Assembly: GCF_020622265.1 (NCBI RefSeq)
Contig: NZ_JACNMQ010000006.1
Span: 124,001 to 188,000, forward strand
Length of the DNA stretch: 64,000 bases
Direction: 5' to 3'
Source: Halomonas sp. M20
GTDB taxonomy: Bacteria > Pseudomonadota > Gammaproteobacteria > Pseudomonadales > Halomonadaceae
The translations under genes were made by a program, and so were the position numbers. A model generated the notes under the pieces. It had not been told where the DNA came from and did not search any database. It saw nothing but the letters and a program-made list of their open reading frames with translations. Shown here one piece after another: positions 28,361 to 49,963 of this stretch. Every line of letters starts with the position of its first letter. Position 1 is the first letter of the stretch.

Positions 28361-28375
28361 CAGTATATGGGCCCG

Positions 28376-28396: not shown

Positions 28397-28434
28397 TGAG
28401 TTACGGTTTTGATGATGCGAGCGGAGGACGGCCT

Positions 28435-29130: not shown

Positions 29131-29194
29131 ATTCCGCGAGACAATGCTCAACGGCATCATCGCTCATTTCACGACCTCCTCGGAGACTCCGCAT

Positions 29195-29635: not shown

Positions 29636-29647
29636 AGGTAAGCGCTG

Positions 29648-30594: not shown

Positions 30595-30611
30595 CCACGG
30601 GATAAGGAGGG

Positions 30612-31355: not shown

Positions 31356-31378
31356 CCGTTATTCGAGGAATCACTGAT

Positions 31379-32245: not shown

Positions 32246-32696
32246 GCGCTGGTTCCTCGCCACAACCTGGCTGCTGCTCAGTGCTGCGGGGCAGGCCATG
32301 GCGGAGGGAAGCCCCTCTTCAAGCGATACCTCTCGGCTGGAAGAGGGAGAAAGCATCTACCAGCAGTATTGTGCCAGTTGCCACGGCCGCCAGGGAGAGG
32401 GCATGCCGAACTGGGAGCGCCAGAATGCCCAGGGCGAACTGCCGGCTCCTCCTCATGGGCCGGAGGGCCATACCTGGAAGCACTCCGATGCTATGCTCTA
32501 CCGGATCGTCGCCGAGGGATGGCGTGACCCCTGGAACAAGACCGAACGACTGACGATGCCGGCCTTCGAGGATGCCCTAGCCCCAGCCGAGATCCGCTCC
32601 GTAGTGAATTACCTCAAGACGTTATGGACACCGGAGCAACGACGCCATCAGGCGGAAGAAAGCGAGGGAGCTCCGTTTCCGACGCAAAGTGAGTAG
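32238..32696 (+). CDS. Secreted class I c-type cytochrome
   Basis: A 152-residue mono-haem cytochrome c. After a signal peptide (TTWLLLSAAGQAMA) the haem motif is CASCH and the distal Met is in LTMPAF; the domain ends in a typical C-terminal helix (IRSVVNYLKTLW). ATG at 32238 overlaps the stop of the beta-propeller gene, so the two are coupled. It is the last gene of the operon and could accept electrons in periplasmic copper oxidation. It ends 28 bases before the transposon genes on the other strand. Confidence 0.9.
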   Translation: MLRRWFLATTWLLLSAAGQAMAEGSPSSSDTSRLEEGESIYQQYCASCHGRQGEGMPNWERQNAQGELPAPPHGPEGHTWKHSDAMLYRIVAEGWRDPWNKTERLTMPAFEDALAPAEIRSVVNYLKTLWTPEQRRHQAEESEGAPFPTQSE

Positions 32697-32723
32697 CTGT
32701 GGGGCTAGGAATTGAAAAGGTGA

Positions 32724-33191
32724 TTATTGGCCAAATTTTTCCCGGAGAATCCGGTCGCGAAGGACTCCATTCGACTTTTCCGAGCACACCAACTCTCGCT
32801 CAACAGCGATAATGCGAGCGGCCAGCTCAGCTTTGGTTTGGCGCATCAAATAATGCATACGTCGCCGCTCCACGTCGGTGGGCTTTTCCACCTCGCGAGC
32901 AAGCGGCCGACCAACGACACGCCGCTGACGAACGGGTTGGGCGGCTTCTTCGTATAATTGACGGCATTCAAGATTTCGCAGAATGGTGGACTCGGAGATA
33001 CCCATTCCCGTGTCGGAGAGATCGCGCGATATTCTCGCAATTCGTCCCAGCGTCACGGGACTGCCGATCTCCTGCAACCGACTGATCGCTCGACGCACGA
33101 TCGTGACGCTTCGATTGCGTCGCTGCTGATGACTGCGTTTCAAACCGGCCATCGCAGCCTCTGGACGCGCCTTACTGGATCGTCGTGTCAT
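32724..33191 (-). CDS. TnpC-like helper protein (DUF6262-like)
   Basis: A 155-residue basic, helical protein with a putative HTH (SPVTLGRIARISRDLSDTGMGISESTIL) and a C-terminal coiled coil. It fits the small third gene of Tn554-type modules, which affects orientation and frequency of transposition. The start overlaps the end of the 1002-aa recombinase gene. It is rich in Arg and has no recombinase catalytic residues. Family assignment rests mainly on gene order and size. Confidence 0.7.
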   Translation of the reverse strand: MTRRSSKARPEAAMAGLKRSHQQRRNRSVTIVRRAISRLQEIGSPVTLGRIARISRDLSDTGMGISESTILRNLECRQLYEEAAQPVRQRRVVGRPLAREVEKPTDVERRRMHYLMRQTKAELAARIIAVERELVCSEKSNGVLRDRILREKFGQ

Positions 33192-36100
33192 TTCTCCTTC
33201 CTCCCGATGGTCAGTATGACGGGATCGGCAGCCGCCTGATCAGCTCGCTCCAGCAGTTCCATCTCGGCCAACACATCGTCACAGCTCGCCATGGATTCCT
33301 TTGCCTTGCGCCCTTCGGCGGGCAGGTTCTGTGCTTCTGCCATCTCCGCCATCTGCGCACAGGCCTGCCGGTAGACGATGACTTGGTCACGCTTGTGCCA
33401 GTCGGGCGCATTCCCGGCACAGCCGATGCAGGCGAACTTGATGGGACACTGACTGGCCACGGTGCACCGTCCACCGATAACCGGGATCAGTGCGCCCACC
33501 TGCTCCTGTGCGGCTTCGATTTGCCGCCGGATCTGCCCCGGGGATCGCACATGGGTACGGGACAGATCCACACGACTTTCAAAGATCTTTTGTTGCAACT
33601 CCATTAGCCTGGCCGGCGTCGGCTGGGAATAGTACTCGGTCACTCGCACATCTCGCTGCTTCATGAGGAGTGCGATCACATCCACGGGCGTGTTCAATGC
33701 CCGCATCTCGGTGGCAAACCCGTGACGCAGCAGGTGAGAAGTGACCCGCACGGCCTCACCGGCAGCAGTTTGCAACGAGATACCGTGCAACATGATAGAC
33801 ATCGTCGCATTGACATCCTTATGACTGAAATGCCTTCCGGCATGTTGCCATAGGTAGGACGCCGCTCGAAGCTTATGCCGCAAGCTTCTGGTAGGCGGGA
33901 TGGTCTCCAGATCCTGCCCCCGATCACGCTGGAACTTCCACCAGGCGTGTAGCGCCTTCATGCAGCGCTCGTCAATATAGTATGGTTCTTCTGCACGGCG
34001 TCCCTTGGGGATCGCGCGAAAGGCGATCGCTTCACGATCCTTGGCGAGCAGCACCCGTGATAAGTGCTCTGGACTCAATCTGATCTGCAGGAACTCGTTC
34101 ATGCGAGCCCCGGTCTTGGTCATGATCTGAATGGCCGCATACCCGACAAGAGCGGCTAGCTTGAGCGCATCGAGTGGAATAAAGAGCATTCCCAGGTCTC
34201 GCGAGACACGCTCCAACCAATGGGATGTAGACAGCCCCCAAGTTGAGTGAGGGGGAAGTTGGAACGCCCCCTTTGAGTAGCCGTTATGCGTCAGAAAGTC
34301 AGAATCAGTAACTTGAGACTTCAGTACATTGGCCTGCAGCAGTTCGATGAACCAGTAGGGCTCTATCAAAGTGGCATCATCGCAAGCATGGCCACCCTCA
34401 TAGCTTAGGAAGTAACGTGCCTGGTCACATATCGTCGCACGTATACGCTGACGCTGATCCTGATGGTAATAGAAGTCTTCTGCCACGGGCTCATGCACAG
34501 AACGCAATGTTGCTGCATCCCAAAGCCTGAAATGCTGCTGTGTCGATCGAGTACGGCCTGATGTCGATACCGTTTCATCGGTGATCGAGAATGACATCGG
34601 TAAGGCCTCCCCCTCCCGTTCATGATGGGCCATGGCATCCTGAAAGGCTGTATGCAGGCGCTCGACCTGAATGCATCGACGCTCGGCCACATCACGAAGC
34701 AGATAGAATCGATCGTGTACAACGGCGGTCGCTGCCTTGCGACGCATCCGTTGGTCGGTTCTCACATCTCGGTGGAGGGTGGAGCGGTGCCAGAAGTGAT
34801 CATCCTTCAGGCCAATGAGTTTCCAAGGCACTACGGCCCGGCGCTGCTTAGGTGTCAACCGGAGTAGATAGTCCTCTTGCTTGCGCAGTAGGCGAAAGTA
34901 AGTCTGCAGGAACCGGCCACGTTTGGGTGTGCCCTCTTCCGGCAATATCTCGCCATCATGATATCGTCGATAGAACACCTCGGGGTCCAGTGCGTCGATA
35001 TCCGGTAGCTTCAACCGTGTCAGGTAGCGCGACATATTGGCGAAGAAGGTGATGTCGTTGCGCCGATTGCCATCGGCAAAGGTCATGACGAAGAAGGCCA
35101 CATCTCGTAGTTTCGGCTGCGAAATGGAGTGAATCATCCGTCGTTGAGAATCATTGAAGGGCCGTCCCATGGTCGGTGATTCTAGAAAGGTCAACGGCAG
35201 GTGATGGAGTGCCGGCGATACACTGTCGAGCACCATTTCCAGAGTGATTTCCTTCCATACTCGCAGCGGACTAGCTCGATGCCCCGTTTCTTCTTCCCAG
35301 CGCCGAATTTCTTGTTTTATGCGGGAGACGTTGTGTCCAGAAAGCCTCAAGACCTCGCTGTACGCCACCGTATATCCCTCTCGGTGTAGGTGCTCAATGG
35401 TCAGACGTGTGAGCCGCGTGAGCACTTCACGTGAGCGCCGCGTATTGGGAAGCGAATAGCGAAAGGTATTGAAGTCCCGACGCCAGCTTTCATAGGCCTC
35501 ACGACTGTCGACCGGGGCGCTCAGGAGCTCATCGGCCAATGCCGCCACGTAATGGCGCGAATACCCCGACACGGTGGCTACGCTGAATCCTAAGCACCTG
35601 CTGATGTCGATGAGTTTGAAAGGCGTTCCGATCTGGCGGCGACGGTCCAGTTCCGCCTTGATCGATTCGTTTCGCCGATTCAGCGTATGGTTTTCGCCCA
35701 CGAGGACGGTAGCCCCAGAAGTATCGAGGGATTTCCAAGCAACCGTGCGCGCTACCTGATGGCCGGTCTCCTGTTCCCAGATAACCAGCTCCTCATTGAG
35801 GATCCGTTTCCTCCCCCCAGTAATGGTTTCAACTGCGTTCACCGTCATCAACGCGTTCTCGCGATGCAGCTGTTCGATGACCAGCCGCACAAAGCGCCGG
35901 AACAGCGCCGGCCCGCTCTCCGTGCGTGTGATAAAGGGGCGAAAGGTGCGGTAGTCACGTACCCAGCGTTCATAAGCCTCTCGGTCCTCAACCACCGTCT
36001 CCAACAACTCCGCTGCCAGCTCACTAACATAACGCTGGGTAACGCCACTGATCGTCTTGCGATCGTAGCCGGTAACCGTCATCACCTCTCGGTTCACGAA

Positions 36101-36196
36101 GGCCACACCCAGCTCGCGCCGACGATCAAGCTCGGTACGTATCGTAAGCCGTCGACGCTCCGGATCAGCACGGTGTTGTCGGGCCGACGGCATCAT
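33188..36196 (-). CDS. Large tyrosine recombinase (TnpB-like, 1002 aa)
   Basis: Second recombinase of the trio. The C-terminal catalytic domain (about 690-910) shows Arg in GARMNEFLQI, HxxR in HLLRHGFATEM and the Tyr nucleophile in VTEYYSQPTP. A Cys-rich tail (QCPIKFACIGCAGN) follows, as in Tn554 TnpB. The N-terminal third carries two tandem copies of a region of about 150 residues, each with an HTH-like segment (TGYDRKTISGVTQRYV and LGFSVATVSGYSRHYV) and an end like IWEQETGHQ/RWEEETGHR. At 1002 residues it is far longer than Tn554 TnpB (about 630). Confidence 0.8.
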   Translation of the reverse strand: MMPSARQHRADPERRRLTIRTELDRRRELGVAFVNREVMTVTGYDRKTISGVTQRYVSELAAELLETVVEDREAYERWVRDYRTFRPFITRTESGPALFRRFVRLVIEQLHRENALMTVNAVETITGGRKRILNEELVIWEQETGHQVARTVAWKSLDTSGATVLVGENHTLNRRNESIKAELDRRRQIGTPFKLIDISRCLGFSVATVSGYSRHYVAALADELLSAPVDSREAYESWRRDFNTFRYSLPNTRRSREVLTRLTRLTIEHLHREGYTVAYSEVLRLSGHNVSRIKQEIRRWEEETGHRASPLRVWKEITLEMVLDSVSPALHHLPLTFLESPTMGRPFNDSQRRMIHSISQPKLRDVAFFVMTFADGNRRNDITFFANMSRYLTRLKLPDIDALDPEVFYRRYHDGEILPEEGTPKRGRFLQTYFRLLRKQEDYLLRLTPKQRRAVVPWKLIGLKDDHFWHRSTLHRDVRTDQRMRRKAATAVVHDRFYLLRDVAERRCIQVERLHTAFQDAMAHHEREGEALPMSFSITDETVSTSGRTRSTQQHFRLWDAATLRSVHEPVAEDFYYHQDQRQRIRATICDQARYFLSYEGGHACDDATLIEPYWFIELLQANVLKSQVTDSDFLTHNGYSKGAFQLPPHSTWGLSTSHWLERVSRDLGMLFIPLDALKLAALVGYAAIQIMTKTGARMNEFLQIRLSPEHLSRVLLAKDREAIAFRAIPKGRRAEEPYYIDERCMKALHAWWKFQRDRGQDLETIPPTRSLRHKLRAASYLWQHAGRHFSHKDVNATMSIMLHGISLQTAAGEAVRVTSHLLRHGFATEMRALNTPVDVIALLMKQRDVRVTEYYSQPTPARLMELQQKIFESRVDLSRTHVRSPGQIRRQIEAAQEQVGALIPVIGGRCTVASQCPIKFACIGCAGNAPDWHKRDQVIVYRQACAQMAEMAEAQNLPAEGRKAKESMASCDDVLAEMELLERADQAAADPVILTIGRKEK

Positions 36197-37548
36197 GGTT
36201 TCAGCATCTCATCTAACATTCGCTGGCTCTCGGTAAGTGACTCGGGGTGAGGAGTCGGTTGGGAGCGGCGAGCGCGATCATGCCGGTGCTCACGTTCGAT
36301 GCGAGCATGAATGCGATGAGCCAGATCCGGCAGGTCATGCCGGCGGATAGCCTGGTCATAGATCGGCAGCATATCGCTTTTCCAGGCCATGAGCTCACGC
36401 AGGGCACCCCGCAGGCTCTGCAGTTCCTCGGCTGAGCGGGCACGCTGGTGGATGTCGTTGAGCGCCTGTGTCACGAACCAGTGACGGACCTGATGACAAC
36501 GCAGCTGCAGTCCTGCGGCGTCGAGCGCCGGCGTCCAATAGTTGCGGCGGAAGTGGTCCGGGCTCAGAGATGTGCCGTGGCGAGTCAGAAACAGCGGAAG
36601 GTGATGCAGAGTTTCCACAGGCAGTTCAGCGAGTTCCGTAAGCCCGCACCCTCGGGGATCTAGCCGAGCACGCTGCTCGTCCACATATCGTCGCAAGACC
36701 TTGACCGTGCGGTCGGTAATGAAAAGCCGTTTCACTCGGCGTCCATGACTTCCCTTGCTGATCGACAGCATCTCGCGCATAAAACCGCTCTGTACCCAGT
36801 CCGCCACGCTGAGTTGACACGCCTCATGGACACGACAGCCGGTATCAAAGAGGATACGTACCAGGCCAGTTTCGCGTAGTGTCCACCCCCACTGCTCACC
36901 AGCTGACATGACCCTGTTCATCAGGGCCGGTTCATCCAGGATCTCGGGCAACCATTGATTTCCTTTCAGCCGGAAGTAACTGGCGGAAAGACGCATCTCT
37001 CGAACGCCGTCCACGCCACTGTCGGCCGGCATGGGCATTCGACCGTGGGCATCGACAAACGCTTGGAGTTGCCGGCGGCGCTCCTCCTCAATGTAACGGC
37101 GGGCACCGTCGGCATCCATAGGATTGCCATGGCGATAGCGACCGTGCTCATGCAGTACCGTGTAGAACGATCTCAACGCCGCCAGAAGCCGTTCCAGGCG
37201 CCGGCCAGTCTGCCAAGTCGGTTCGATTCGACGGGTTTCGAATCCACCGCGATCTCGACCCAACGCCACGATGCACTTCATTTCCGAAGCGAGGAAGAAA
37301 GCCAACAGTGCGCGCACCTGAGCAGGTGGCCCCAGCAACTGCCAACCCTGTCGAATCACGACGGGATGATCTGTCGCCCATGAAGCAAAGGAGACAACTT
37401 CCCTCGTGTAGGCTCTTGCAGTCAGCGATGCATGGTGACGCACGGATAGGCAGGCATAGAGGGTCAGCTCTGGGTGCGGTAACCCATCGCGATCCACCAC
37501 ATGAAAGGGAAAGGCCCCTTCGGCACGCAGGACCCGATAAACCGGCAT
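36193..37548 (-). CDS. Tyrosine recombinase (TnpA-like, 451 aa)
   Basis: First recombinase of the trio. The catalytic domain is in the second half: Arg in FDTGCRVHEACQL, Lys in ISKGSHGRR, H-x-x-R in CHQVRHWF and the Tyr in MLPIYDQAI. The N-terminal half is a SAM-like core-binding domain. It overlaps the TnpB-like gene by 4 bases. Together they would act as a pair in strand exchange. The frame is intact, so the module may be active. An ordinary phage integrase would not have this partner arrangement. Confidence 0.82.
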   Translation of the reverse strand: MPVYRVLRAEGAFPFHVVDRDGLPHPELTLYACLSVRHHASLTARAYTREVVSFASWATDHPVVIRQGWQLLGPPAQVRALLAFFLASEMKCIVALGRDRGGFETRRIEPTWQTGRRLERLLAALRSFYTVLHEHGRYRHGNPMDADGARRYIEEERRRQLQAFVDAHGRMPMPADSGVDGVREMRLSASYFRLKGNQWLPEILDEPALMNRVMSAGEQWGWTLRETGLVRILFDTGCRVHEACQLSVADWVQSGFMREMLSISKGSHGRRVKRLFITDRTVKVLRRYVDEQRARLDPRGCGLTELAELPVETLHHLPLFLTRHGTSLSPDHFRRNYWTPALDAAGLQLRCHQVRHWFVTQALNDIHQRARSAEELQSLRGALRELMAWKSDMLPIYDQAIRRHDLPDLAHRIHARIEREHRHDRARRSQPTPHPESLTESQRMLDEMLKP

Positions 37549-37649
37549 GAGAGGTTACCTCCCAGGGCAAGACACACTGATGCTACCTGCACGTGTCCGA
37601 TGACTGTGCTACAGCATCATCAGTGAACAAGAGTATGCTCTGTAGTATA

Positions 37650-38500
37650 GGGCCAAACTTGCCAATCGAATTGCCAAAAAGCAGGCAGCCTATGAAGGCG
37701 TCTGCGTACTAGCGCCCGATTCCGCGATAACGCGTCACATACTGGAACGTACCCCCACGACTGATTTATGGGGCGTGGCCAGTCGTACCGGTATGAAGCT
37801 CGACAACCTGGGCATCCGCTCTGCCTGGGACTTGCGCAACGCTGATCCAAAGCGGCTTCGACGCCAGTTTTCTGTTGTCATGGAGCGCACCGTATGGGAG
37901 CTGCGTGGTGTCGATTGCATTGAGATCGACGAGATGAGCAAGCCGAAAGACAACATCATGACCAGTCGCTCGTTTGGACGGCTCACCGGCGACCGAGCAG
38001 ATCTGCGTGAGGCCGTGCGCGTGCATGCCAGCCGTGGTGCCGAGAAGCTGCGTCGTCAGGGGTCGGTTGCGCGGGCGCTGATGGTCTTTCTCAAGACGAA
38101 TTGTCACCGCCTCGAGCTGCATCAGTACAATCCCAGCCTGGTCGTGCCGCTACCGCGTGCGAGTGACGACAGTCGGATCATCGTCGGCACCGCTCAGCGC
38201 GCGCTTGATTGTCTCTATCGTCCCGGGTACGCGTTCATGAAGTGCGGCGTCATGATGCTCGATTTGGCGGACAAAAAGACCCTACAGCACGACTTGTTCG
38301 ATGCGAAGCAGGGTAATGCTGACCGCGAGCGCAGTGAAAAGCTGATGAGTGTGGTGGATCGTATCAATCGCGAGCATGGTCGCAATGCGATAAGCATCGG
38401 CAAGCCCCGAAAGAATGCTGCCTGGGCGTTGAGGTGCCAGCACCGTACGCCACGATACACAACCAGCTGGGAAGAATTGCCGGTTGTGCGGATGCGGTGA
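37650..38500 (+). pseudogene. umuC: umuC (DNA polymerase V subunit), 5'-truncated
   Basis: The frame reads AKLANRIAKKQAAYEGVCVL from about 37651 and continues through HhH and little-finger domains (GVASRTGMKLDNLGIRSAWDL; MERTVWELRGVDCIEIDE; TSRSFGRL) to a normal UmuC end (TTSWEELPVVRMR). The first third, with the polymerase palm residues, is missing, replaced by the end of the transposon. No umuD is present. It could be translated from an internal GTG at 37775 but would lack catalytic activity. Confidence 0.88.
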
Positions 38501-38503
38501 GGC

Positions 38504-38563
38504 GAATCCCTTCGAATCTCGTAGACGCTTTTAGCTCTTGTACTGATGTCACCAAGGAGGTTC
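38504..38563 (+). pseudogene. IS3-like left-end remnant
   Basis: These 60 bases align without gaps, at about 70% identity, to 48363-48422, the leader and ribosome site of an IS3 orfA fragment. The shared part includes CGTAG, TCTT-TACTGA and AGGAGGT. No orfA reading frame is preserved here. It follows the umuC stop directly. Confidence 0.45.
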
Positions 38564-38866
38564 CATTTGTTGCAATGACAACGGAATCCCGAACGTGTCT
38601 GCTGGGCAAAACCACTGCTGATATGACGACAGCTGTTCTTCGAGGATGCTAGTCGAAGGGCAAATGTCGCCTTCAATAGCTTGATAAACGATCAGTGGCT
38701 TGCACAACTGATAGCATCTTGGGAAAAGAGGGTGCGTGATGCCGGGGCGCTGAGCGGGTCTGCGTGGGGTGGTGAGTCAGGTCAAGCGGTACGTGTATCA
38801 CCGTGGTTTGCCGAGCCAGGCGTTACTGCTCATGCTGTAGTAAACCTTCGTCAGGAGAAGTCGTAC

Positions 38867-39523
38867 ATGTGCGGACGTTTTGCGCTTTACAGCGCCTATC
38901 CCAAGTTCGCAACCAAGGCGGGTGCGCCGACCATCAGTGAAGAGCTGACACCGCGCTACAACGTACCGCCTGGCACGTGGATCACAGCGATACGCCGGCT
39001 CTCGGAAGATGAGCCGCCGCACGTGGAGGAACTGTGGTGGGGCTACAAACCCAGATGGGCAAAAGGCAAGGCGAGCCAGCCGATCAACGCTCGGGCCGAA
39101 ACGGTAGCCACCTCTGGCTATTTCAAGGCAGCGTTTCAAAAGCACCGCTGCCTAATTCCTGCCGATGGCTGGTATGAATGGGACAAGACCACTACACCCA
39201 AACAACCTCACTTTATCTGCCGTGAGGATCGCGAGCCGCTCTTCTTCGCAGGGATCTACACCGAGCGAGAGGATGGCTCACTGGGCTGTGCAATCATCAC
39301 CGAGCCGGCCCGAGGCTCAGCCCACAAGGTGCACGATCGTATGCCACTGATCTTGGACGACGAGAGCTTAGAACCATGGCTTGACCCCGACCTGTCTGAC
39401 CAGGAGACGCTACGCAACGTGGTGCATCATATCGATGCTGGGCTGATTACGCACTGGCCGGTCAGCACAAAGGTGAACAGGCCGAACGGGCCGGGGGATG
39501 AATCGCTGATCAATCCAGCGTAA
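38867..39523 (+). CDS. SRAP/HMCES-family abasic-site processing protein (YedK-like)
   Basis: A 218-residue protein that forms a covalent thiazolidine link with abasic sites in single-stranded DNA through Cys2. The start MCGRF is fixed by this catalytic Cys and by CAGGAGAAG upstream; the longer open frame to 38681 is not used. Other family motifs are NARAE, PADGWYEW (Glu in the active site) and HDRMPLIL (catalytic His). It lies downstream of the umuC remnant, an SOS-type pairing often seen on plasmids. Intact. Confidence 0.93.
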   Translation: MCGRFALYSAYPKFATKAGAPTISEELTPRYNVPPGTWITAIRRLSEDEPPHVEELWWGYKPRWAKGKASQPINARAETVATSGYFKAAFQKHRCLIPADGWYEWDKTTTPKQPHFICREDREPLFFAGIYTEREDGSLGCAIITEPARGSAHKVHDRMPLILDDESLEPWLDPDLSDQETLRNVVHHIDAGLITHWPVSTKVNRPNGPGDESLINPA

Positions 39524-39828
39524 CGGCAAAGCAATAAGGTAGTTATGAGGCGGCGTATAGTGACAAAGCTGGATTTTAGCTGAGGCTCAAGGAAAGAGGT
39601 GGGATTGCCGATAGATAGCGGAAAGAAAGGCTGCTCACGACCCAGAGCGGCCATTGCGGAAAATGCAGCGGACACGTGATTTTTGTTATAAAGCTGAATT
39701 TTTTATGATTCCTAAGAATCAAAGGCTTGCGATAACGTAGTCAAGATACCTTTGCTGGATTAACGTTCCGGAACCTTAATCCAATCATAAGGCCAGTAGT
39801 CTAATAATTATTATGCGCTAGGGTTACT
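39524..39828. other. Intergenic, AT-richer than flanks, no feature found
   Basis: About 305 bases without a supported gene. Composition turns AT-rich from about 39690 on, marking the start of the low-GC defence-like segment. No promoter with convincing -35/-10 spacing, no terminator and no IS end was recognised. Confidence 0.5.
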
Positions 39829-40347
39829 ATGAAGCATAGAGATATACAGCCAGCACATGAAAAGTCAGTTCTGGATAGCTTTGGGGGCTACCTCCTTGCA
39901 CAAGGAATAAATCTCACGGTTATCGACCGACCTGATCCACCTGATGCCATTGTAAATTTGGATGGAAAGCGAAGTTGGATCGAAATTACGGATGCTTTTC
40001 AAAGTGCGGATTGGGCTAAAAGCATTACGTCGTATGCTGCTGAAGATAAGACGCATGTTTCGTACAAGAGAGGTCTAATAACTGAGCCTGACCAACAAGC
40101 CTGTTCACAGGTCAAAGAAGTGATTTTGAAGAAGTATCGCAAAGGAACCATGAAGCAGTTGATGCAATCTTATGGCCAAGGGATATTGCTGGTAGGTTCT
40201 TATACGCCGTTAACAATGCCTGAAGAAATCATTGATCAGGCAGGCGTATCTATAAATACAGAGCTCTCGCAAGAGTCATCAATTTTTAGTTCTATTTATC
40301 TATACAGGAATTCAGAGAGTGGACATGTGTTTTCACAGCTCCTTTGA
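39829..40347 (+). CDS. Hypothetical protein, possible PD-(D/E)XK-like fold
   Basis: A 172-residue protein, AT-rich and unlike neighbouring core genes in codon use. The segment RPDPPDAIVNLDGKRSWIEITD (about 34-55) has the look of a restriction-endonuclease-like core: Asp in a hydrophobic strand, then Glu-x-Thr after a basic turn, though Lys is replaced by Thr. The middle is Lys/Gln-rich and the end hydrophobic. No transmembrane segment. It lies upstream of the STAND gene in the same direction, 377 bases away. Function is not known; the fold is a weak guess. Confidence 0.6.
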   Translation: MKHRDIQPAHEKSVLDSFGGYLLAQGINLTVIDRPDPPDAIVNLDGKRSWIEITDAFQSADWAKSITSYAAEDKTHVSYKRGLITEPDQQACSQVKEVILKKYRKGTMKQLMQSYGQGILLVGSYTPLTMPEEIIDQAGVSINTELSQESSIFSSIYLYRNSESGHVFSQLL

Positions 40348-40724
40348 AATCAAAAAGCTCGTGGCAAGGCCAAGTAGCATCGTCCTATCGGGGCTAGAGC
40401 TCACTACGCTCGGGTGCTGTCGGCGGTGTTAATGAGGGAATTACGAGATTTCGCTCTTGGCCAGCTGAGGAATGTTAGTCAACACTGATGAATGAAATTT
40501 CGACGGCTGACGATACACACCAGCAGGTCGTGCCAGAAACAGCGAGCAGTGCTTATTTTCGATCATTCGCTATATCAGCGAGCAAAACGGGCCGCCGATT
40601 AAAAACATTTTATCTTCCGAATAAAGCCTAGTGAAAACCGTTTATAAAAAGCGCTTCCGTGGGTAACGTTATACATGTCGGCTGAATTTCTGAAAAGAAT
40701 GGGATGTTGTACTGAGGTGAGATC
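40348..40724. other. Upstream region of the STAND gene
   Basis: 377 bases between the hypothetical gene and the STAND NTPase gene. AT-rich near 40600-40680. Right before the GTG start at 40725 is GAGGTGAG, a strong ribosome site. No intact short gene was found. The part 40400-40500 may hold a decayed gene, but nothing recognisable. Confidence 0.5.
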
Positions 40725-43700
40725 GTGGCAATTTTTGACATAGAGAAAGACGAATTACTCCCGCTGTCAGATACCCAGCTGGAAGAGTTGATTGCTCGCC
40801 TCGCCGAGGCCGAAGTAGCAGCGCATGGCCATAGCCCTGCATGGGTGAACTGGTCAGGTTCAATCAATGCTCCTGACGAAGGAATTGATATCCACGTTCA
40901 GGTTCCAGTCGATACATTAAGCACCGGATTTATTGAAAAGCCTGATACGGTTATTCAGGCTAAGAAACACCCGATGCCAAAAGGCGCGATCACGCAGGAA
41001 ATGGTCATAGACGGCGAACTGTCGGCGACTATCTCAGAGCAGGCTTCGAAGGGGGGTGGCTACATTATCGTTAGCTTGGCTGATGATTGTTCGCCTCCGA
41101 ACAAGGAGAAGCGTCTTCAGGCAATGCGAGAAGCTGTGAAGGATGATCCCAACAGCAGAAATATTCACCTAGACTTCTATGACCGCTCGAAGCTGACTCA
41201 ATGGCTACGTCAGCATCCGTCGATTATGCTGTGGACAAAAGGAAAGCTTGGTCAGGGATACTCAGGTTGGCAGCCATACGGGGCTTGGAGCAATCCACCT
41301 CAAGATGTCGAGGATACATTGATTTCGGCCCCAGGCGTGACGGTCATGCTGCCATCAGGGAAGGGCCAGAAGCTCAGTATTGAAGATGCCATTGAACCAA
41401 TGCGTGGCCTCATAAGGTCTACGCTCAAGGCCATTCGTATAACGGGTTTATCCGGCGTCGGGAAGACCAGAATTGTGCAGGCACTCTTTGATGAAACGGT
41501 CGGCAAAAATGCTCTCGATCGGACTCTAGCTGTGTACGTCGATACTGGTGCTGAGCCGGATCCTTCGGCAGCAGCGATGCTGGACAGACTTATCGCTGAG
41601 GGCCGACGTGCCGTCATGATCCTCGATAATTGTCCGTCAGAACTTCACTCTTCATTGGCCAGAAAAGTATCAGCTGCAGGCAGTGAGGTAAGCCTCATAA
41701 CCGTTGAGTATGACATCAGGGATGACAAACCTCAGACAACTGAGGTAATCCACATTGAAGCAGTTGGGCCGGAGGTGGCCGAGCAGCTTCTGATCCGTCG
41801 GTTCCCCGGGATTGGCCAGCACAACGCTCGCCGGATAGCAGAGTTCGCTGATGGGAACGCAAGGGTTTCCCTAGCAATCGCCGAGAGAGTGGAGGTAGGT
41901 GAGAGTTTGGCTCAGCTTTCTGATGCGCAGTTGTTTAACCGCTTGTTTGAGCAGCGTAATTATCCGGACGAAGATCTGCGGGAACAGGCTGAAATACTGT
42001 CTCTGGTTTATTCGTTCTCGGTCTCAAACCCTGAGGACAGTTATAGCGAGTTAGAAGTTCTAGGATCGATCTTGGGGCATTCCCATAGCCAATTGTTTCG
42101 ATCAGTCAAGAAACTATTGGACCGTCATATTGTGCAGAAGAGGGCACATTGGAGAGCCATCCTGCCCCATGCCATTGCGAACAAGCTGGCTGCCTCGGCA
42201 CTTGATGGTGTCCCGGTTGATCAACTCAGGGCGACCTTTGAAGCCTCCGGTCGTCAACGCTTACTATTGTCGTTCGCACACAGACTGGGGCTATTGCACG
42301 ATAACCCCGTGGCGAAAGAGATCGTTGAAGCTTGGCTCCAGCCAGATGGGCTGCTGGGGCGGATATTAGCGCTGGAGGGAATGCCAGTACGAATGCTGGG
42401 CTATATCGGCCCGGTCGCGCCTGAAGCACTGCTTGACAGGATTGAAGCAGAGCTTGCCGCGCCTGATTTTGGTGGTATGGGGCCGCTTCACAATCCACAG
42501 CGGACAACCATTCTCAATCTTTTGCAGTTGTTGTCATACGAATCGGGCGCCTTCGACCGCTGCATCCGGCTACTAATCCGCGTGTCAGACTACGAAGATG
42601 AGAACAACAAATACGACGCGGTTCGAGATAAGATTACGAAGTTTTTCCAGGCATACTTGTCGGGCACACATGCCTCTCTAAATCAGCGCATCGGGATTAT
42701 GAATGAATGCCTTTCTTCAGATGTGGCTGGGCGTAGGTCGCTGGGTTTTAGGATGCTCTCGACTGCCTTGGGTGGGCCGCCGTGGACAGGATTTGGGATG
42801 AATGAGTTTGGTGCTCGCCCAAGAGACTTCGGTTTCCAACCCAACCACGATGAACTTGTGGAGTGGCGCTGCGCCTTTATCAACGTTGCGGTGCGATTGG
42901 GGACCTCTGGCGATCCTGGTCTTGAAGGGCCTGCACGGTTGACCCTTGCGAACGGATTTCGAGGGATGTGGCATCACAAAGCAATGAGAGAGAAACTCGT
43001 CGATGCGGCTCGCAAGCTACATGATTATCACCCTTGGGGCGAAGGTTGGAAAGCAGTCCGGTCAACGATTTATTTCAACCATACCAAGCGCAAAGACAAG
43101 GATGATTTCGAGCCGCTGCCAGATAACCTTGCCGCATTGGAAAGGGAGTTGGAGCCCGAGGGCTTGGTTCCGGAAATATTGACATACGTGCTAAGCAAGG
43201 AGCAGGACTATTGGGCGCTAGACGTCGATTTTGATCATAAGGACAGCAACAAGTATCACGAAGTTGAAAAGCGACTTGAAACCAAGGCGCTTCGATTAGG
43301 TGAGGGCTTCGCAGCATCAGACCATGAGCTCGACGAGTTGGGTCCCAACCTTTTCTCCAACGACTGGATGCCATATTGTACTGCATTTGGAAGAGGGTTG
43401 GCGAAGGGGGCACATGACTTGCGAGTTGGTTGGCGGCAACTCTTCGATCAACTTGAACATAAGCCTGAATCCAACAAGAACTTCGCAGTCTTTGCCGGTT
43501 TTATCGAAGAGGTAGACTCTGTTGATCGGGCACTAGCACAAGGGTTACTCGACCAGTGCGCACAGCACCCTGAACTTCGACATGTACTGGTCGGCTTGCA
43601 CCCAAGGCGGGAGTTCACAGAAACCGACTTAGATCGCTGCATGTCGCTTCTGGATGATTCTGACACACGTCCGTGGATGTATGGTCCAATTTTATGGCGT

Positions 43701-44576
43701 GACGGGTATGCTAATCTGTCCAGTGACCGTGTTCTCTATCTTGCTCAGCAGCTGCTGAGTATACCGAACGGCGATGATGTGGTTTTGGATGCTCTAAGCA
43801 TGAAGCTACATGGCAAAGATTACGCTGTAGATATACTTGGTTCCGACCTTCGACTGGTCGGTCTAAGAGCAGCGATCCAGAGACTCCAAAAAGATGACAG
43901 GGATACTGGCGGATCCATAGATTATAACATGGAGCGCGTCATCAGTGTCGCGTTGCGCTTTGACGACAACGATGCCGAAAAGCTGAAGTGGCTGGAAACT
44001 ATCTTTACTGTTATTGATGAGCGGTATGGCTTCATTCATGCGTTCGAAAGTGCTATCGAGACGACTATCGCTTTGATGCCAGAGGCGTTTCTCAATCGCG
44101 TTTTTAAAGGCACTGAAAAAGAACAACATCGACGGCTGTTCTTTATTCACCATGGTAGCTTGCGTCGCTCTCCTCTCGCCAAAATCGATATGGACGTTTT
44201 GATTGGGTGGTGTCGTTCCAGAAACGATACTAGCGTGTGGGCACCTGTCGCGGCGGGTATCAGTCTTTGGTCAAAGGATGGGGATCAGGGGGCAGTTAAG
44301 ATATCGGAGTCAGCGATCAGGTTACTGGAAGCTTCTCCTGAGCCAGAAGCCGTTCTGGAGGCATTCGCCGAGCGCGTCACACCTTCATCATGCTCTGGTA
44401 GTCGATCTAACGTGATGCAACCTAGAGCGGATGCCATTAGTGTGTTCGTTGAGCATGAGAGCGAGGAGATCGCTGTGGCTGCTAAATCGGTGTCTGAAAA
44501 ACTGGTTGAGTGGATCGATCATGAGAGAGTGCGTGAACAGCGGGAGGACGAGGAGCGCGAACAGCGGTTTGAATGA
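40725..44576 (+). CDS. STAND NTPase with N-terminal nuclease-like domain (candidate anti-phage protein)
   Basis: A 1283-residue protein with three regions. (1) Residues 15-170: a PD-(D/E)XK/Mrr-like core, with Asp55 in DEGIDIHV and Gln78-x-Lys80 in VIQAKK, the D...QxK pattern of Mrr-type nucleases. (2) About 230-500: a STAND/NACHT-like NTPase with P-loop GLSGVGKT (241-248), Walker B VMILDN (297-302) and a winged-helix part. (3) About 500-1240: a long helical region, probably repeats for target sensing, ending in a charged coiled coil. This order (nuclease, NTPase, sensor) is that of Avs-type antiviral STANDs. Intact; GTG start with GAGGTGAG. Lower GC than the core genes. An IS630 copy begins 12 bases after its stop. 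Confidence 0.8.
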   Translation: MAIFDIEKDELLPLSDTQLEELIARLAEAEVAAHGHSPAWVNWSGSINAPDEGIDIHVQVPVDTLSTGFIEKPDTVIQAKKHPMPKGAITQEMVIDGELSATISEQASKGGGYIIVSLADDCSPPNKEKRLQAMREAVKDDPNSRNIHLDFYDRSKLTQWLRQHPSIMLWTKGKLGQGYSGWQPYGAWSNPPQDVEDTLISAPGVTVMLPSGKGQKLSIEDAIEPMRGLIRSTLKAIRITGLSGVGKTRIVQALFDETVGKNALDRTLAVYVDTGAEPDPSAAAMLDRLIAEGRRAVMILDNCPSELHSSLARKVSAAGSEVSLITVEYDIRDDKPQTTEVIHIEAVGPEVAEQLLIRRFPGIGQHNARRIAEFADGNARVSLAIAERVEVGESLAQLSDAQLFNRLFEQRNYPDEDLREQAEILSLVYSFSVSNPEDSYSELEVLGSILGHSHSQLFRSVKKLLDRHIVQKRAHWRAILPHAIANKLAASALDGVPVDQLRATFEASGRQRLLLSFAHRLGLLHDNPVAKEIVEAWLQPDGLLGRILALEGMPVRMLGYIGPVAPEALLDRIEAELAAPDFGGMGPLHNPQRTTILNLLQLLSYESGAFDRCIRLLIRVSDYEDENNKYDAVRDKITKFFQAYLSGTHASLNQRIGIMNECLSSDVAGRRSLGFRMLSTALGGPPWTGFGMNEFGARPRDFGFQPNHDELVEWRCAFINVAVRLGTSGDPGLEGPARLTLANGFRGMWHHKAMREKLVDAARKLHDYHPWGEGWKAVRSTIYFNHTKRKDKDDFEPLPDNLAALERELEPEGLVPEILTYVLSKEQDYWALDVDFDHKDSNKYHEVEKRLETKALRLGEGFAASDHELDELGPNLFSNDWMPYCTAFGRGLAKGAHDLRVGWRQLFDQLEHKPESNKNFAVFAGFIEEVDSVDRALAQGLLDQCAQHPELRHVLVGLHPRREFTETDLDRCMSLLDDSDTRPWMYGPILWRDGYANLSSDRVLYLAQQLLSIPNGDDVVLDALSMKLHGKDYAVDILGSDLRLVGLRAAIQRLQKDDRDTGGSIDYNMERVISVALRFDDNDAEKLKWLETIFTVIDERYGFIHAFESAIETTIALMPEAFLNRVFKGTEKEQHRRLFFIHHGSLRRSPLAKIDMDVLIGWCRSRNDTSVWAPVAAGISLWSKDGDQGAVKISESAIRLLEASPEPEAVLEAFAERVTPSSCSGSRSNVMQPRADAISVFVEHESEEIAVAAKSVSEKLVEWIDHERVREQREDEEREQRFE

Positions 44577-44587
44577 AAGTAACGCTA

Positions 44588-45676
44588 CTGACGATACAGG
44601 AACTTCGTAATGAAGCATCTGTCGACCGAGAACATGCTCTGACAGGTCATCGTCATGCTACAAGACTTTGCTCAAGCCTATCGTCGTTCGCTTGCCGTCA
44701 AATGGGTCAAGGACGGCATGAGTCAGCAGGAAGTCGCCCAGCGCCTGGAGGTCACTCAAGGAGCTATCAGTCAATGGATCGCCCGGGACCGAGAAGGCGG
44801 TGAAGACGCGCTCAAGGCACAGCCGCGATCCGGTCGGCCGCCACGTCTTCCTCCCGACAAGATGGCCAAGGTGTTGGTAGCGCTCGAAGCCTTGGGACCA
44901 GAAGGTTTCGGCTATGACGATCAGCGCTGGACAACGCAGCGCATTGCCGATGCCATCGCGCGGCTGACCGACGTTCACTACAGCACCTCGTCGATCAGCG
45001 ACCTGTTCAGGCAATGGGGCTGGTCCTGGCAAGTGCCCAAGCGCCAGGATAGTCGGCGTGACGAGGCCACCATCGACCACTGGCGAGAACAGCTCTGGCC
45101 AGAATTAAAAAAAAGAAGCCGAGGCGCAGAATGAAACGCTGATCTTCGTCGATGAGTCGAGCTTCCATCTCTGCACGCATCATCTGAAGACCTTTGCGCC
45201 TATAGGGCAAACGCCGGTCGTCAAAGGCAAGCGAGGGCAGTCGCCGCGCCACCTGGTCATCGGTGCCGTCTCGAGCGAAGGACGTAGCTATTTTCACTGG
45301 ACCTCGGACACGGTCACCGGCGCAAGCATCGTCGCTTTTCTGAAGACGCTACTGCGTTATTGGCCAGGCAAGCTTCGTATCATCTGGGACAACGCCCCGG
45401 TCCATCGCTGTCAGGCTGTGCGCGATCTGCTGCGCCATCCGGAGGTACAAGGCCGGTTGCGCCTGGAAGCGCTTCCTCCGTATGCGCCCGAGTTGAATCC
45501 GGCCGAGGCGGTATGGAGTTGGTTGAAGCGACGCTGTGCCAATCGGGCGTTTTCGACGGCTCTGGCTTTGGGTGAGTGGCTACGTTATGCCACCCAATGG
45601 CTGAAGCGTCGCCGTGAGCAGGTCAAGCAACTCTTGCGTGCCTCGCCTATTCATTAGCTTTTTTATGGAAGGTCAG
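44588..45676 (+). mobile_element. IS630-family insertion sequence
   Basis: An element of about 1089 bp. The ends CTGAC...GTCAG are the start of imperfect inverted repeats (CTGACGATAC against CTGACCTTCC) and are flanked on both sides by TA (44586-44587 and 45677-45678), the IS630 target duplication. It contains one transposase gene in two frames. The insertion lies just after the STAND stop codon and does not disrupt it. Confidence 0.8.
44655..45657 (+). CDS. IS630 transposase, two frames joined at an A8 tract
   Basis: The first frame (44655-45134) has the N-terminal HTH domain (GMSQQEVAQRLEVTQGAIS) and linker. The second (about 45115-45657) has the DDE domain: Asp in IFVDESSFHL, Asp in IIWDNAPVH and Glu in PELNPAEAVWSWLK. 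The join is at eight A's (45107-45114): loss of one A gives LKKEAEAQNETLIFVDES in one frame. Transcriptional slippage on A8 could produce the full enzyme of about 333 residues, as proposed for several IS630 elements; a plain frameshift mutation is the alternative. Confidence 0.8.
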
Positions 45677-45685
45677 TAGCTCTGC

Positions 45686-45877
45686 TTATGCGGCTTTGGC
45701 AATGAGCTCCCGTGCCCGTGGCGCATTAGGCCGTGCAACGGGCCGGTGGCTTCGGGCGTTGCTTGCGGCAGGGCCCGGAAAGTAGAGTCGGTCACGACAC
45801 AGCCGCTTGTACTGATCAAGATCCTGGCCGTGATCGATCAATAGGATACACCGCCCTTCTAATTTCCTGGCATACAT
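45686..45877 (-). pseudogene. Transposase C-terminal remnant (family uncertain)
   Basis: A 63-residue frame reads MYARKLEGRCILLIDHGQ and RLCRDRLYFPGP, resembling the end of an IS transposase, with a stop at 45686. There is no catalytic part and the upstream frame is broken. Adjacent bases to about 46290 on the same strand (for example VEAHSLPVPESSFYRHW) may belong to another decayed element. Confidence 0.35.
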
Positions 45878-46046
45878 CGGAAGCCTTCATTGCTCCCGGG
45901 CCAGGGCCTGGCGGTTAAGCCGTGGGCCGGACAGGTCTTTCCTCCAAGCGTCATGAAAGCCATAGCTAGGTTCGAGATAAGGGGTAAATTTCTGACCCCA
46001 TGCCGAAAAGCCAAGAAATTCAAGCTTCTTGCCAAGGAGCGCGGTC

Positions 46047-46157
46047 ATGGATAAATATTTGGAAATGCTTGTCGTTGCATCGCCCGTTATTGTCGTGTCT
46101 GCCATGCTGCTGGTGGCTGCTCTCTGGCTGCGCCGCAAACGTAAGCATAAACCGTAG
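46047..46157 (+). CDS. Small single-helix membrane protein (36 aa)
   Basis: A short frame with CCAAGGAGCG upstream of ATG. It encodes MDKYLEMLVV, then one helix of about 20 hydrophobic residues and a very basic tail (LRRKRKHKP). It has the look of a membrane peptide such as a small toxin or stress protein. It lies in IS-rich DNA with no partner gene seen. Not recognised; could be chance. Confidence 0.4.
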   Translation: MDKYLEMLVVASPVIVVSAMLLVAALWLRRKRKHKP

Positions 46158-46303
46158 TGCTTTCTTGAGTCTGGGATCTAAGTGGTCGATTCCCCTCGGC
46201 TCAAACGGTTCGCTTTGCCGCCAGTGACGGTAAAAAGAGCTCTCGGGAACCGGTAAACTATGCGCTTCGACGAAGCGAGGATGGCCTGACAACCAAAACC
46301 CAT

Positions 46304-47245
46304 CTAGGTGTGCGGTCCCGAAGAGTAATGGTTCGGGTCGTAATGAAATCTCTCGGGTTCTTTATGCCACTGCTCAAGGATAAATCCTATCGGTGTCTTG
46401 CCCTTGAGCGCCCTGAGTGGCCGGGCACTGTTATAGGCCCATAGGTAATCATCCAGGTGGGACTGGAGCTGATCCAGCGAGGTGTAATGGAACGTCCGAG
46501 TCGTTGCCTTCTTGATGGCGCGGTTCATTCGTTCCACTTGCCCGTTGGTCCAGGGATGGAAGGGCTTCGTCAGGCGATGCTCGATGCCGTGGCGGTAACA
46601 GACAACATCGAAGATATGCGGCTTGTAGGTCTCTGTTCCGGCCTTCTTCGCGAACTGTACCCCGTTGTCCGTCAACACCGTATGGGCGCGGTAAGGCAGG
46701 GCCTGCAGCGTGTCTTCGAGGAAATCAGCGGCGACTTGCCTCGTCATCTTCCGGTATAGCTGGGCATGAACGAACTTGGAGGTGCGATCCACGGCGACGA
46801 ACAGGTAGGCCTTGCCCTCTCCGGTACGGATTTCACTGATATCGATGTGCAGGTAGCCCATCGGGTAACGCTTGAAACGCTTCTTCTCACGATTCTGGTT
46901 GCCAGCCTTGGGTAGCTGACTGATGCCGTGCCGCTGATAAAGGCGGGATTGGGTAAGCGAAGGGATCTCTCGCTGAAGCGCATGAAGTCAGTCATCGAGA
47001 GGCAGCAGGGTCTTTTACCGGAAGGTAACAGCTGCGGCTTCCTCCAGAGGCGTCAGCGACGTGGAACGAGCCGCCTTGGGCCCCATGCGAGTATCCTCGA
47101 CGCTATCCCGACTGCGCCACTTGCGCACAGTTTTTGGATTGATGCCGTAGCGACGGCTCAACGTCGCGACCGAATCCGTCGATCGCTGTATTTCTGCTCG
47201 GATGGCGTGCGTGGTCATGGCGCGTTGATGAAGAATCTGAGCCAT
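46304..47245 (-). pseudogene. IS481 transposase with two in-frame stops
   Basis: A single frame of 314 codons: N-terminal HTH (VATLSRRYGINPKTVRKWRSR), a linker, and an integrase-like DDE core (DISEIRTGEGKAYLFVAVDRTS; VLTDNGVQF; NGQVERMNRAIKKA). Two stops interrupt it at about 47015 (TAA after TFR) and about 46990 (TGA after LDD), with no frame change between. The final stop codon lies outside the terminal repeat in the flanking TAG, as in elements that borrow their stop from a CTAG target. Inactive unless supplied in trans. Confidence 0.85.
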
Positions 47246-47302
47246 GGGTCATCCTCCGATAGTGGCTCGTAAGATAGACCATTACTCTTCGGGACCGCAC
47301 AC
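46308..47302 (-). mobile_element. IS481-family insertion sequence with perfect 24-bp ends
   Basis: About 995 bp, bounded by GTGTGCGGTCCCGAAGAG... at 46308-46331 and its perfect reverse complement at 47279-47302. It contains one transposase gene read leftwards. Left flank ends in CTAG and right flank begins GTAG, compatible with a short CTAG-type target duplication that has mutated. The ends are intact but the transposase is not. Confidence 0.85.
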
Positions 47303-47364
47303 GTAGTGGAGTCCTACCGCTGCCTTGGGGCAACGGCGCTGCCAATAACGCAGTACTGGCATTG

Positions 47365-47952
47365 TCATAGTGAAGGCAACTTGCTGAGGGCCTTCTCTAC
47401 CGCTCGGTGGTGCCCCAACAGACGAAAGCTGCGGTCCTTGACTTCGCGGTATTCTCTTTTCACGTGATCCAGAAGGTGTGGCATTTCATCAACGAGTTGC
47501 TTGTAGCGCTCTGTCTCTCCCGTCGACGTCAGAAAATCTAGACGGATTCTTTCCAAGATTTCGTTCAAGCGCTGATATGCATCCACCTCAGCCGTGGATG
47601 GCATAGAGGACTGAGCATGTTCCGGCGGCGCTTGCGCCGCTTGCTGTCCGGGCTTCAGGCTAGTCTTGAACCCGTTGTCAATGAGCTTCAGTTGCAAATG
47701 CTCCGGCATGGGAAGTCGATGATAGACCTGTCCCCGCTTGCGGCTCTCATTAGCTTTCACTAACCAACCCGACTTCAGCATACGGCGAATCTGCTCATAC
47801 ACATACCGGCGAACATCACTGAGCGGATAGGAGACGCCCTCAAGTCGTAAGGCATAAGCGTCCCGCATTTCACGAGTAGTGAACTGAGCAAATCTTTCTT
47901 CCTGTAATAGCTCATATATCCACTTATCGAGAGTGAACGAGGTAGGTTTCAT
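47365..47952 (-). CDS. Winged-helix-like protein of unknown function
   Basis: A 195-residue protein. The N-terminal 85 residues look like a winged helix (FTLDKWIYELLQEERFAQ; YPLSDVRRYVYEQIRRMLKSGWLV), the middle is Pro/Gln-rich and the end a coiled coil (about 140-195). The start at 47952 is chosen because the domain begins there; the frame is open to 48036. It is divergent from the Xre-type regulator at 48054, 101 bases apart. Not recognised; possibly a DNA-binding partner of a lost mobile or defence system. Confidence 0.55.
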   Translation of the reverse strand: MKPTSFTLDKWIYELLQEERFAQFTTREMRDAYALRLEGVSYPLSDVRRYVYEQIRRMLKSGWLVKANESRKRGQVYHRLPMPEHLQLKLIDNGFKTSLKPGQQAAQAPPEHAQSSMPSTAEVDAYQRLNEILERIRLDFLTSTGETERYKQLVDEMPHLLDHVKREYREVKDRSFRLLGHHRAVEKALSKLPSL

Positions 47953-48053
47953 AGGAAGTCCGAGGAGAAAAGAGAAATTCCGCGGATTATAATCCGTGGT
48001 TCGCGTATGCGTAAACACACGATAGTGCTGTCTCAAGTGGAATCGAGGCAGCT

Positions 48054-48284
48054 ATGGAACAGTTGGCGAAAGCGCTAGGGAAACGGATTCGGGCCCTGAG
48101 AAAGGCCTATGGGCTGTCTCAGGATGCTCTGGCTCTGGCCAGCCATATCGACCGCAGCTATATGGGCCGCATTGAGCGCGGTGAGGTCAATATCACGGTC
48201 GACAAGCTGTACCGCATCGCCCGCGTGCTAGGGTGCGACCCTGCTTCTCTCCTGCCTCCGGCAACGAAGATCCAAGTCAACTAG
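48054..48284 (+). CDS. Xre/Cro-type HTH regulator
   Basis: A 76-residue protein consisting of a single HTH_3 domain (LGKRIRALRKAYGLSQDALALASHIDRSYMGRIERGEVNITVDKLYRIARVL). Such small proteins act as controllers of restriction-modification systems, prophages or toxin-antitoxin pairs. Length and sequence resemble C-proteins. It is divergent from the wHTH gene, whose promoter it may control. No restriction or methylase gene is nearby. Confidence 0.85.
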   Translation: MEQLAKALGKRIRALRKAYGLSQDALALASHIDRSYMGRIERGEVNITVDKLYRIARVLGCDPASLLPPATKIQVN

Positions 48285-48423
48285 CGGGACGAGCTACTTA
48301 CCATCAAGAACTCCTGTCTGTAGCTTCTGAACAGCACCGGGATTCCCGAGAGGCTCCAAACTGAATCGTCCCGAGTTTCGTAGTCACCTCCAGATCTTAT
48401 ACTGAAGGCACCCAGGAGGTCCT

Positions 48424-48594
48424 ATGAGCCGTCAACGGAACACCGAAAAATTTAAGGTCGAAGCTATCAAGCAAATGACAGAACGTGGCCGCCCCGTCGC
48501 TGATGTTCTCGATGCTGAGGCTGTGCGACATCGCTCGCTGCGAGGCGCCGGCGCTATCTGGCTCGCGGCCCGTGGATCTGCTCGGCACTTCTAG
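48424..48594 (+). pseudogene. IS3-family orfA fragment
   Basis: The frame reads MSRQRNTEKFKVEAIKQ and TERGRPVADVLD, the start of an IS3 OrfA HTH protein, then runs into unrelated sequence and stops after 57 codons. AGGAGGTCCT precedes the ATG. The bases 48363-48422 upstream resemble 38504-38563, another left-end copy. No orfB remains. Confidence 0.65.
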
Positions 48595-48686
48595 AGGGTG
48601 GCAGTCGATACGCGAGGTATTGGAAAAAATCGAATGCGGCGAATTCTCATGACGTTCAATAGCACATAACTTAGGAGTATCTGATA

Positions 48687-49037
48687 GTTGTCTTCTCCGA
48701 TCATGACATCCAGATCCTAGTTGATGATCTCAATGATCATGCCTCTTAGTTGCAAGAGAGCGGCTTACGGCTAGAAGCTGTGGATCCTAATGCTTCTCGT
48801 GCCATGCTCGCTATTGCGCATGAACTCTGGGCAATGCAAAAGACGTTGGGTGATGGTCGACTCACGCTGCGTCAAGCACCACGCGAAGAAGGTGAGCCGA
48901 ACGTCAAAGTGCCCCATACATCAACAGGAACGCCTTATGTTCGGATTCGAGACATCCCGGAATTGTTTCAGGATGACTTCATGCGCTATCTACGTGGCGC
49001 AGCCATGCCTGTAGTTGTGGTGAGACGGAGCCAGTAG
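48687..49037 (+). pseudogene. Hypothetical gene remnant
   Basis: One frame reads DIQILVDDLNDHAS, an in-frame TAG at 48747, then LQESGLRLEAVDPNASRAMLAIAHELWAMQKTL to a stop at 49035-49037. A following stretch (FTIADLTAAAEVLRDFHAATYYLNTQQE, ending at 49159) may belong to the same or a neighbouring gene. Family not recognised. The stop and small size suggest decay. Confidence 0.35.
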
Positions 49038-49156
49038 CTTTCGAAGTTGATTGGCTGGACTGATTTCACGATCGCCGACCTGACCGCAGCCGCGGAAGTG
49101 CTCCGTGATTTTCATGCAGCCACCTACTATCTCAACACACAGCAAGAAGACCTTAC

Positions 49157-49350
49157 TTGATCATCGGCTATGCCCGCGTCAGCACACAGTACCAGAACCC
49201 CGAGCTGCAGTGTGATGTGATGCCCTCGATGAGGCTGGCTGTGAGCAGGTCTTCGAGGAGCGTGTCACCGGCACCAAGCTAGAGCGCCCCGAGCTGCAGG
49301 CCTGCCTGCGCGCCCTGCGTGACGGCGACACCCTAGTGGTGAGGGCTACG
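49157..49350 (+). pseudogene. Serine resolvase/invertase N-terminal fragment
   Basis: TTG start, then IIGYARVSTQYQNPELQCD with the catalytic Ser of the resolvase family, a frameshift near 49217, then CEQVFEERVTGTKLERPELQACLRALRDGDTLVV in the next frame. It ends abruptly against IS66-like sequence at about 49350-49370. Matches Tn3-type resolvases or Pin-type invertases; only the N-terminal catalytic half is left. Confidence 0.75.
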
Positions 49351-49369
49351 TCGGCGACGAAGCGCCGCG

Positions 49370-49541
49370 GCCATTGACGCGACGGTAGCGGCACACCTTG
49401 CACTGCGAGACGCTGCTCCCAGGCCAGCAGTGACGCCACCAGTCGCTGCTCTGCGGCATACTCGCTCAGCGCCAATTGCCGGGACGAGGCATGTAACATA
49501 TGGCTCAGCCAGTAGGCCTGCGTCGAGGTCAGTTCGTTCAT
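49370..49541 (-). pseudogene. IS66-like TnpA fragment
   Basis: The frame from 49541 reads MNELTSTQAYWLSHMLHASSRQLALSEYAAEQ..., the start of an IS66 accessory protein TnpA-like HTH. After about 57 residues it runs into the resolvase fragment. It is the last mobile-element trace before the core chromosome. Confidence 0.5.
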
Positions 49542-49553
49542 GGCGTCCTCCAA

Positions 49554-49963
49554 TGATCAGAGGTCACCAGTGTGGCCGACGCTAGTCAGTTCGAGAAGGT
49601 AGGGTTGCTGGAGCACTTATGCAAATTAGGAAACATCGGTTGCGGAAAGCATCTGAAAGATGAACATGGATACTATTTTATCTTAATCATCGACAGATAC
49701 AGACGTAGATTAAAAGGTATAGACATAGGGGGGTGATAAAAAATGACCTTGTTTACACCTCTAGCCATGGTTAATCACCTTTCCTTCTACAATCAATTAA
49801 TTGGAAACCCAAGACGACCATCGCTTCCGTTCGAGATCAGGATGATCGAGTCGATGGCCGTCAGGCAACCTAGAACGTGATGGGACGATAGTTTTGATGA
49901 TTGCCGAATGATACACAAATGCCACGAGCGCCGCGCGTTACGAGACGAAGAGATGATTTAACG
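49554..49963. other. Island/core junction, no gene found
   Basis: 410 bases, AT-rich from 49660 to 49800, with no supported gene. In related gammaproteobacteria an ssb gene commonly stands beyond the MFS gene here; it is absent. No tRNA or attachment-site repeat was recognised. Confidence 0.5.

Follow-up and report, generated by a model that had tools for sequence, protein, structure and literature searches.

A review table credits the PD-lambda-4 anti-phage system to Vassallo et al. 2022, and the same review files it under P-loop NTPase, not PD-(D/E)XK nuclease (PMC10952713). The credited study reports 21 systems from E. coli strains, selected by phage challenge, and does not name PD-lambda-4 in the accessible part of its main text (PMC9519451). 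PD-Lambda-4 is also among the systems detected in a Citrobacter koseri genome paper (PMC13268207). STAND NTPases, according to a further source, are defined by an effector, a central NTPase and a C-terminal sensor (PMC12931631). A collection of open-licence papers, searched by name and by description, yielded none that deals with how PD-lambda-4 works. In E. coli, protein A is encoded on an ssrA-linked integrative element, and gene B (303 aa, family PDLC03992) lies 45 bp 3′ of A. Annotation tools may require both A and B for PD-lambda-4.

The gene studied here lies in 64,000 nucleotides of Halomonas sp. M20 DNA (the window), on an island carrying metal-resistance genes (Table 1). A preliminary description had read it as a candidate new anti-phage system: an intact ORF for 1283 aa with its own strong ribosome site, lower GC content and mobile elements around it. 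The ORF is indeed intact, with the place, strand and length given there. It opens with GTG, 4 nt after the sequence GAGGTGA, and the start is common to 14 of 14 aligned sequences, comprising 13 homologues and the window protein, each beginning MAIFDI. In 2-kb windows, GC is 48–53% over the gene, compared with 54–68% in the left flank and 53–58% in the right. On its upstream side are tyrosine-recombinase genes, and on its downstream side transposase genes.

Table 1. Features of the PD-Lambda-4_A locus, in window coordinates
Feature	Position	Strand	Evidence
Part of a genomic island (≥49.8 kb) common to this and two other species; its left end is beyond the window	1..49811	.	Identity in G013
Ribosome-binding site GAGGTGA	40714..40720	+	4 nt 5′ of GTG; read from sequence
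PD-Lambda-4_A family protein, 1283 aa	40725..44576	+	ORF, family model, start alignment
Predicted Mrr-type PD-(D/E)XK nuclease domain, residues ~1–170 (approximate limits)	40725..41234	+	hhalign profile
D55 to K80: D55 and Q78-x-K80, putative catalytic residues	40887..40964	+	37/37 homologues
Walker A P-loop GLSGVGKT, residues 241–248	41445..41468	+	Pattern in 37/37
Walker B-like stretch (so named here), ending D301-N302	41613..41630	+	D301 in 23/23
All-helical C-half, residues 480–1283, presumed sensor	42162..44573	+	AlphaFold2 model; HEAT-like matches

The family of the window protein is anti-phage, as that description proposed, but the system is not new. PADLOC model PD-Lambda-4_A (PDLC03991) covers residues 1–1283 of 1283 with 2226.8 bits, a match that excludes chance for the ORF and, being full-length to a family already named, rules out a new system. 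The E. coli PD-Lambda-4_A protein is a full-length homologue of the same length and 68% identity. In Pfam the window protein has weak P-loop matches alone (AAA_16, E 0.0019, under the cut-off), and no STAND family reaches the cut-off. Searches of NCBIfam, of PDB sequences and of 50,697 phage records returned no match. Membership of Avs1–4 was rejected, by PADLOC models for all types (none matches at E up to 1) and by profile comparison for Avs4 alone. Compared with the nearest diverged homologue (L004), the gene has dN 0.13 and dS 0.85 (dN/dS ~0.15), and by these rates it is under purifying selection.

The N-terminus is predicted to adopt the fold of an Mrr-type nuclease, a relationship that is well supported but remote. 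Asp51, Gly53, Asp55, Gln78 and Lys80 are identical in all 37 homologues of an alignment in which identity to the window protein falls to ~20% and no sequence was selected by motif. In the alignments, Asp55, Gln78-x-Lys80 and the P-loop lie where the preliminary description had placed them. Aligned by hhalign to Mrr_cat proteins (from 12 of 16 matched loci), the nuclease-domain profile scored 35.3 (131 columns; single-comparison E 9.3e-5; probability 59%), against at most 18.6 for 200 column-shuffled profiles. Both D55 and QxK are in register in this alignment. An earlier profile, its sequences chosen by motif pattern with 6 of 30 left out, scored 32.0, against at most 17.4 for 100 shuffles and 12.1 for a reversed control. 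Mrr_cat is absent from the Pfam matches of the window protein at E up to 1, and residues 1–170 mostly have pLDDT <60 in a low-confidence model of the N-half. The DxxxD ... QxK pattern is common to Mrr restriction endonucleases and the window nuclease domain over the 131 columns; unlike them, the window nuclease is joined in one protein to an NTPase and an extensive helical region.

The P-loop NTPase is probably of the STAND type. The longest alignment of its profile, 151 columns, was to one nSTAND3 protein (score 44.2); those to a KAP NTPase, Avs4 and UvrA spanned 126 (35.6), 54 (38.4) and 23 columns (39.8), the last limited to the P-loop, and all four were scored without shuffled controls. 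Because these scores alone lie close together, the STAND assignment rests on coverage, architecture and homologues. Asp301, at the end of the Walker B-like stretch, is identical in 23 of 23 homologues, counted in an alignment of sequences cut at the P-loop. The model of the N-half is poor (pLDDT 55). Its first Foldseek matches are NB-ARC proteins (NRC1, NRC4 and NRC3), then APAF-1 and CED-4; RuvB and clamp loaders are also among the matches and Avs4 (8dgf) stands at rank 22, every TM score being ≤0.21 by query length. Given the order of its domains and the swapping of the N-terminal effector among its homologues, the window protein has the effector–NTPase–sensor plan of STAND proteins, with the helical C-half as presumed sensor. 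The nuclease, NTPase and sensor-like plan of the preliminary description is thereby upheld.

In its AlphaFold2 model (pLDDT 82, pTM 0.70) the C-half is almost entirely helical and forms a solenoid. HEAT-like solenoids (karyopherins, SF3B1) are among the Foldseek matches listed, at TM ≤0.30, and no Avs structure is found in the best 50 of 1104 structural matches. The C-half profile has no similarity to the sensor of Avs4, the sole Avs protein compared (18.9 over 19 columns); together with the PADLOC result, this bears out the earlier suspicion that the sensor falls outside the Avs types. Mean column identity is 72% in the C-half and 79% in the N-half, and the lower conservation of the former agrees with the expectation for a sensor.

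STAND immune receptors typically keep a constant receptor core and exchange the effectors on it, and the homologues of the window protein do so too. On one enterobacterial plasmid an alpha/beta hydrolase takes the place of the nuclease (L052; DUF676, E 8.7e-6), and on another a gene annotated as an alpha/beta fold hydrolase occupies the same place, by reading (L051). A Moraxella plasmid protein (L053) is matched by the Avs4 model over residues 3–248 (225.4 bits) and by PD-Lambda-4_A over residues 163–810 (423.2 bits); a tblastn search with its N-terminal module found plasmid genes annotated as Avs4 at 40–47% identity. A helix-turn-helix precedes the nuclease in L035 (Pfam) and, by reading, in L032–L034, L037 and L120. 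This swapping of effectors on an NTPase–sensor core is the best evidence that the window protein would work like Avs. Avs4, represented here by proteins from two E. coli plasmids, shares with it the plan of N-terminal nuclease, NTPase and long C-terminal region. It differs in its sensor, in an NTPase of weak similarity and in its nuclease: by profile comparison, the window nuclease domain is not detectably the Avs4 module (hhalign 14.5 over 22 columns). A search for the Avs4 family in 274 genomes gave weak matches in 11, at ≤21.7 bits.

Gene B was sought in the window by tblastn with two B proteins, and in the genome to which the window belongs (G000) with family PDLC03992; it was found in neither. 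Because B was looked for and not found, the locus, by a strict test, is not a complete PD-lambda-4 system, in contrast to that of E. coli. A is commonly found without B. Among 369 gammaproteobacterial genomes (own genome included), A was found in 13, and B in none of 369 genomes drawn in the same way. Of 69 A loci, 52 extend to the end of the gene and ≥1 kb further, and merging at 97% identity leaves 41 distinct groups, several with a partial or broken A (including L016, L017, L020, L044, L121, L122, L123, L125 and L129). Two of these groups have B, namely L118 (B at 65% identity) and, related to it, the ssrA-linked lineage of E. coli, both with enterobacterial-type A genes; a strongly diverged B could escape detection in these counts. 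In 14 control genomes B was detected in one, an E. coli in which A went undetected. Across 5426 E. coli genomes, A matches occur in 182 (165 with ≥80% of its length), close copies of the L024 A in 151 and B in 156, and the single diverged E. coli A examined (L106) is without B. This distribution makes B look like an accessory of the enterobacterial branch.

Several loci show further arrangements of B. In the E. coli lineage of L106 (10075–11613), a reverse-transcriptase gene takes the place of B after the diverged A. In the E. coli-type loci L025 (11898–12810) and L040 (9898–10807) B is in two frames, and in nine of the 10 rows listed E. coli B spans two annotated genes, not one. The sole Pseudomonas plasmid examined, from Pseudomonas aeruginosa, has no A but encodes a B homologue of 40% identity (L048, 8001–8912), adjoining SAVED, nucleotidyltransferase, ThiF and Mov34 genes read as CBASS.

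The distribution of B bears directly on whether the window locus is a degraded PD-lambda-4, in which B was lost, for example with the downstream transposon insertions, and A alone is inactive. The closeness of A and B in E. coli fits such a loss, as does a transposase gene that begins 79 bp after the window A. Yet both A groups with B are of enterobacterial type, the 369-genome surveys found 13 genomes with A and none with B, and the window A is unbroken, has the same sequence in three species and is constrained relative to L004. Degradation is on this evidence unlikely, and a B-less but functional A is favoured.

Two other species of the genus (G012 and G013) carry an A gene with exactly the DNA sequence found in the window. 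In G013, positions 1–49811 of the window are matched at 99.7–100% identity and the sequence from 49963 onward at 82%; the leftmost 34.8 kb is ≥99.99% identical in G012. The uvrA gene, immediately beyond the window, shows 91% and 84% identity. Near-identity of this segment across species, set beside the diverged flanks, argues that the island of at least 49.8 kb bearing A moved recently between species. A search of 97 related genomes (own included) gave an A match in four, one a 70-residue fragment. The cargo of the island includes heavy-metal ATPases and a multicopper oxidase, and no defence cluster is visible on it. Three consecutive genes on the minus strand (32724–37548) encode proteins of 451, 1002 and 155 aa. 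Phage-integrase domains occur in the first two, and the set, which looks like a mobile recombinase trio, may serve the movement of the island itself. An SRAP (SOS response-associated peptidase) gene (38681–39523) follows a umuC C-terminal remnant (37775–38500), and a 172-aa ORF upstream of A (39829–40347) has no useful match in Pfam, PADLOC or NCBIfam. The gene directly after A (44655–45656) encodes an IS630-type transposase, apparently in two overlapping frames around an A-run at ~45106–45113.

A second alternative is that A acts with another, unrecognised partner, host-specific or encoded elsewhere in the genome. Such a partner could be seen in the KAP NTPase gene (733 aa) that ends 114 bp 5′ of A in four Roseobacter-type loci (L005, 2273–5884; L006, L009 and L012), in three of which a 454-aa protein of unassigned family is encoded ahead of it. 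Neighbours in the clustered loci, however, recur in small sets at most, and the window shares none with unrelated A loci except the SRAP gene, found near A in four (the window; L051, 7375–8052; L008, 6305–7012; L109, 1–658). No neighbour being widely recurrent, a conserved neighbour as hidden partner was rejected, and the broader form of this explanation is somewhat less plausible than degradation. That the protein is a STAND regulator with no part in defence, as its position amid metal-resistance and recombination genes might suggest, is very improbable given its 68% identity to the E. coli protein, the invariance of the nuclease residues across the 37 homologues and the lack of any match to a regulator family in Pfam, PADLOC or NCBIfam.

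The window A is thus likely to be a solo PD-lambda-4_A receptor of the STAND type, triggered by phage and armed with an Mrr-type nuclease effector. In this scheme the C-terminal helical region would recognise a phage product, an ATP-dependent rearrangement of the STAND-type NTPase would assemble protomers, and the N-terminal nuclease domains would then cut DNA, halting phage growth directly or through cell killing and so presumably conferring protection. Counting against a solo receptor are that the PD-lambda-4 known to protect is an E. coli clone, where PADLOC has A and B, and that the island carries metal-resistance genes and no visible defence cluster. The poor N-half model, the remote Mrr match and the separation of the NTPase classes by aligned length alone weigh in the same direction.

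Absence of B, swapping of effectors and an island shared with two other species go beyond the known description of PD-lambda-4. Taken jointly, the results permit a wider reading, with about even chances of being right, in which PD-lambda-4_A proteins would be widespread single-gene STAND receptors parallel to Avs, with a helical sensor of their own and swappable effectors (Mrr-type nuclease, Avs4-type nuclease or alpha/beta hydrolase). The same reading, at the same even odds, would make the two-gene PD-lambda-4 a derived enterobacterial form with B optional, and the window gene a functional solo receptor. If A works alone, PD-lambda-4 would be best viewed as an Avs-like family of STAND receptors, and its many B-less homologues on plasmids and islands would be candidate defences with phage triggers of their own to identify. 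The L053 hybrid, an Avs4-type nuclease on a PD-lambda-4_A core, suggests that NLR-like receptors of bacteria trade effectors across families.
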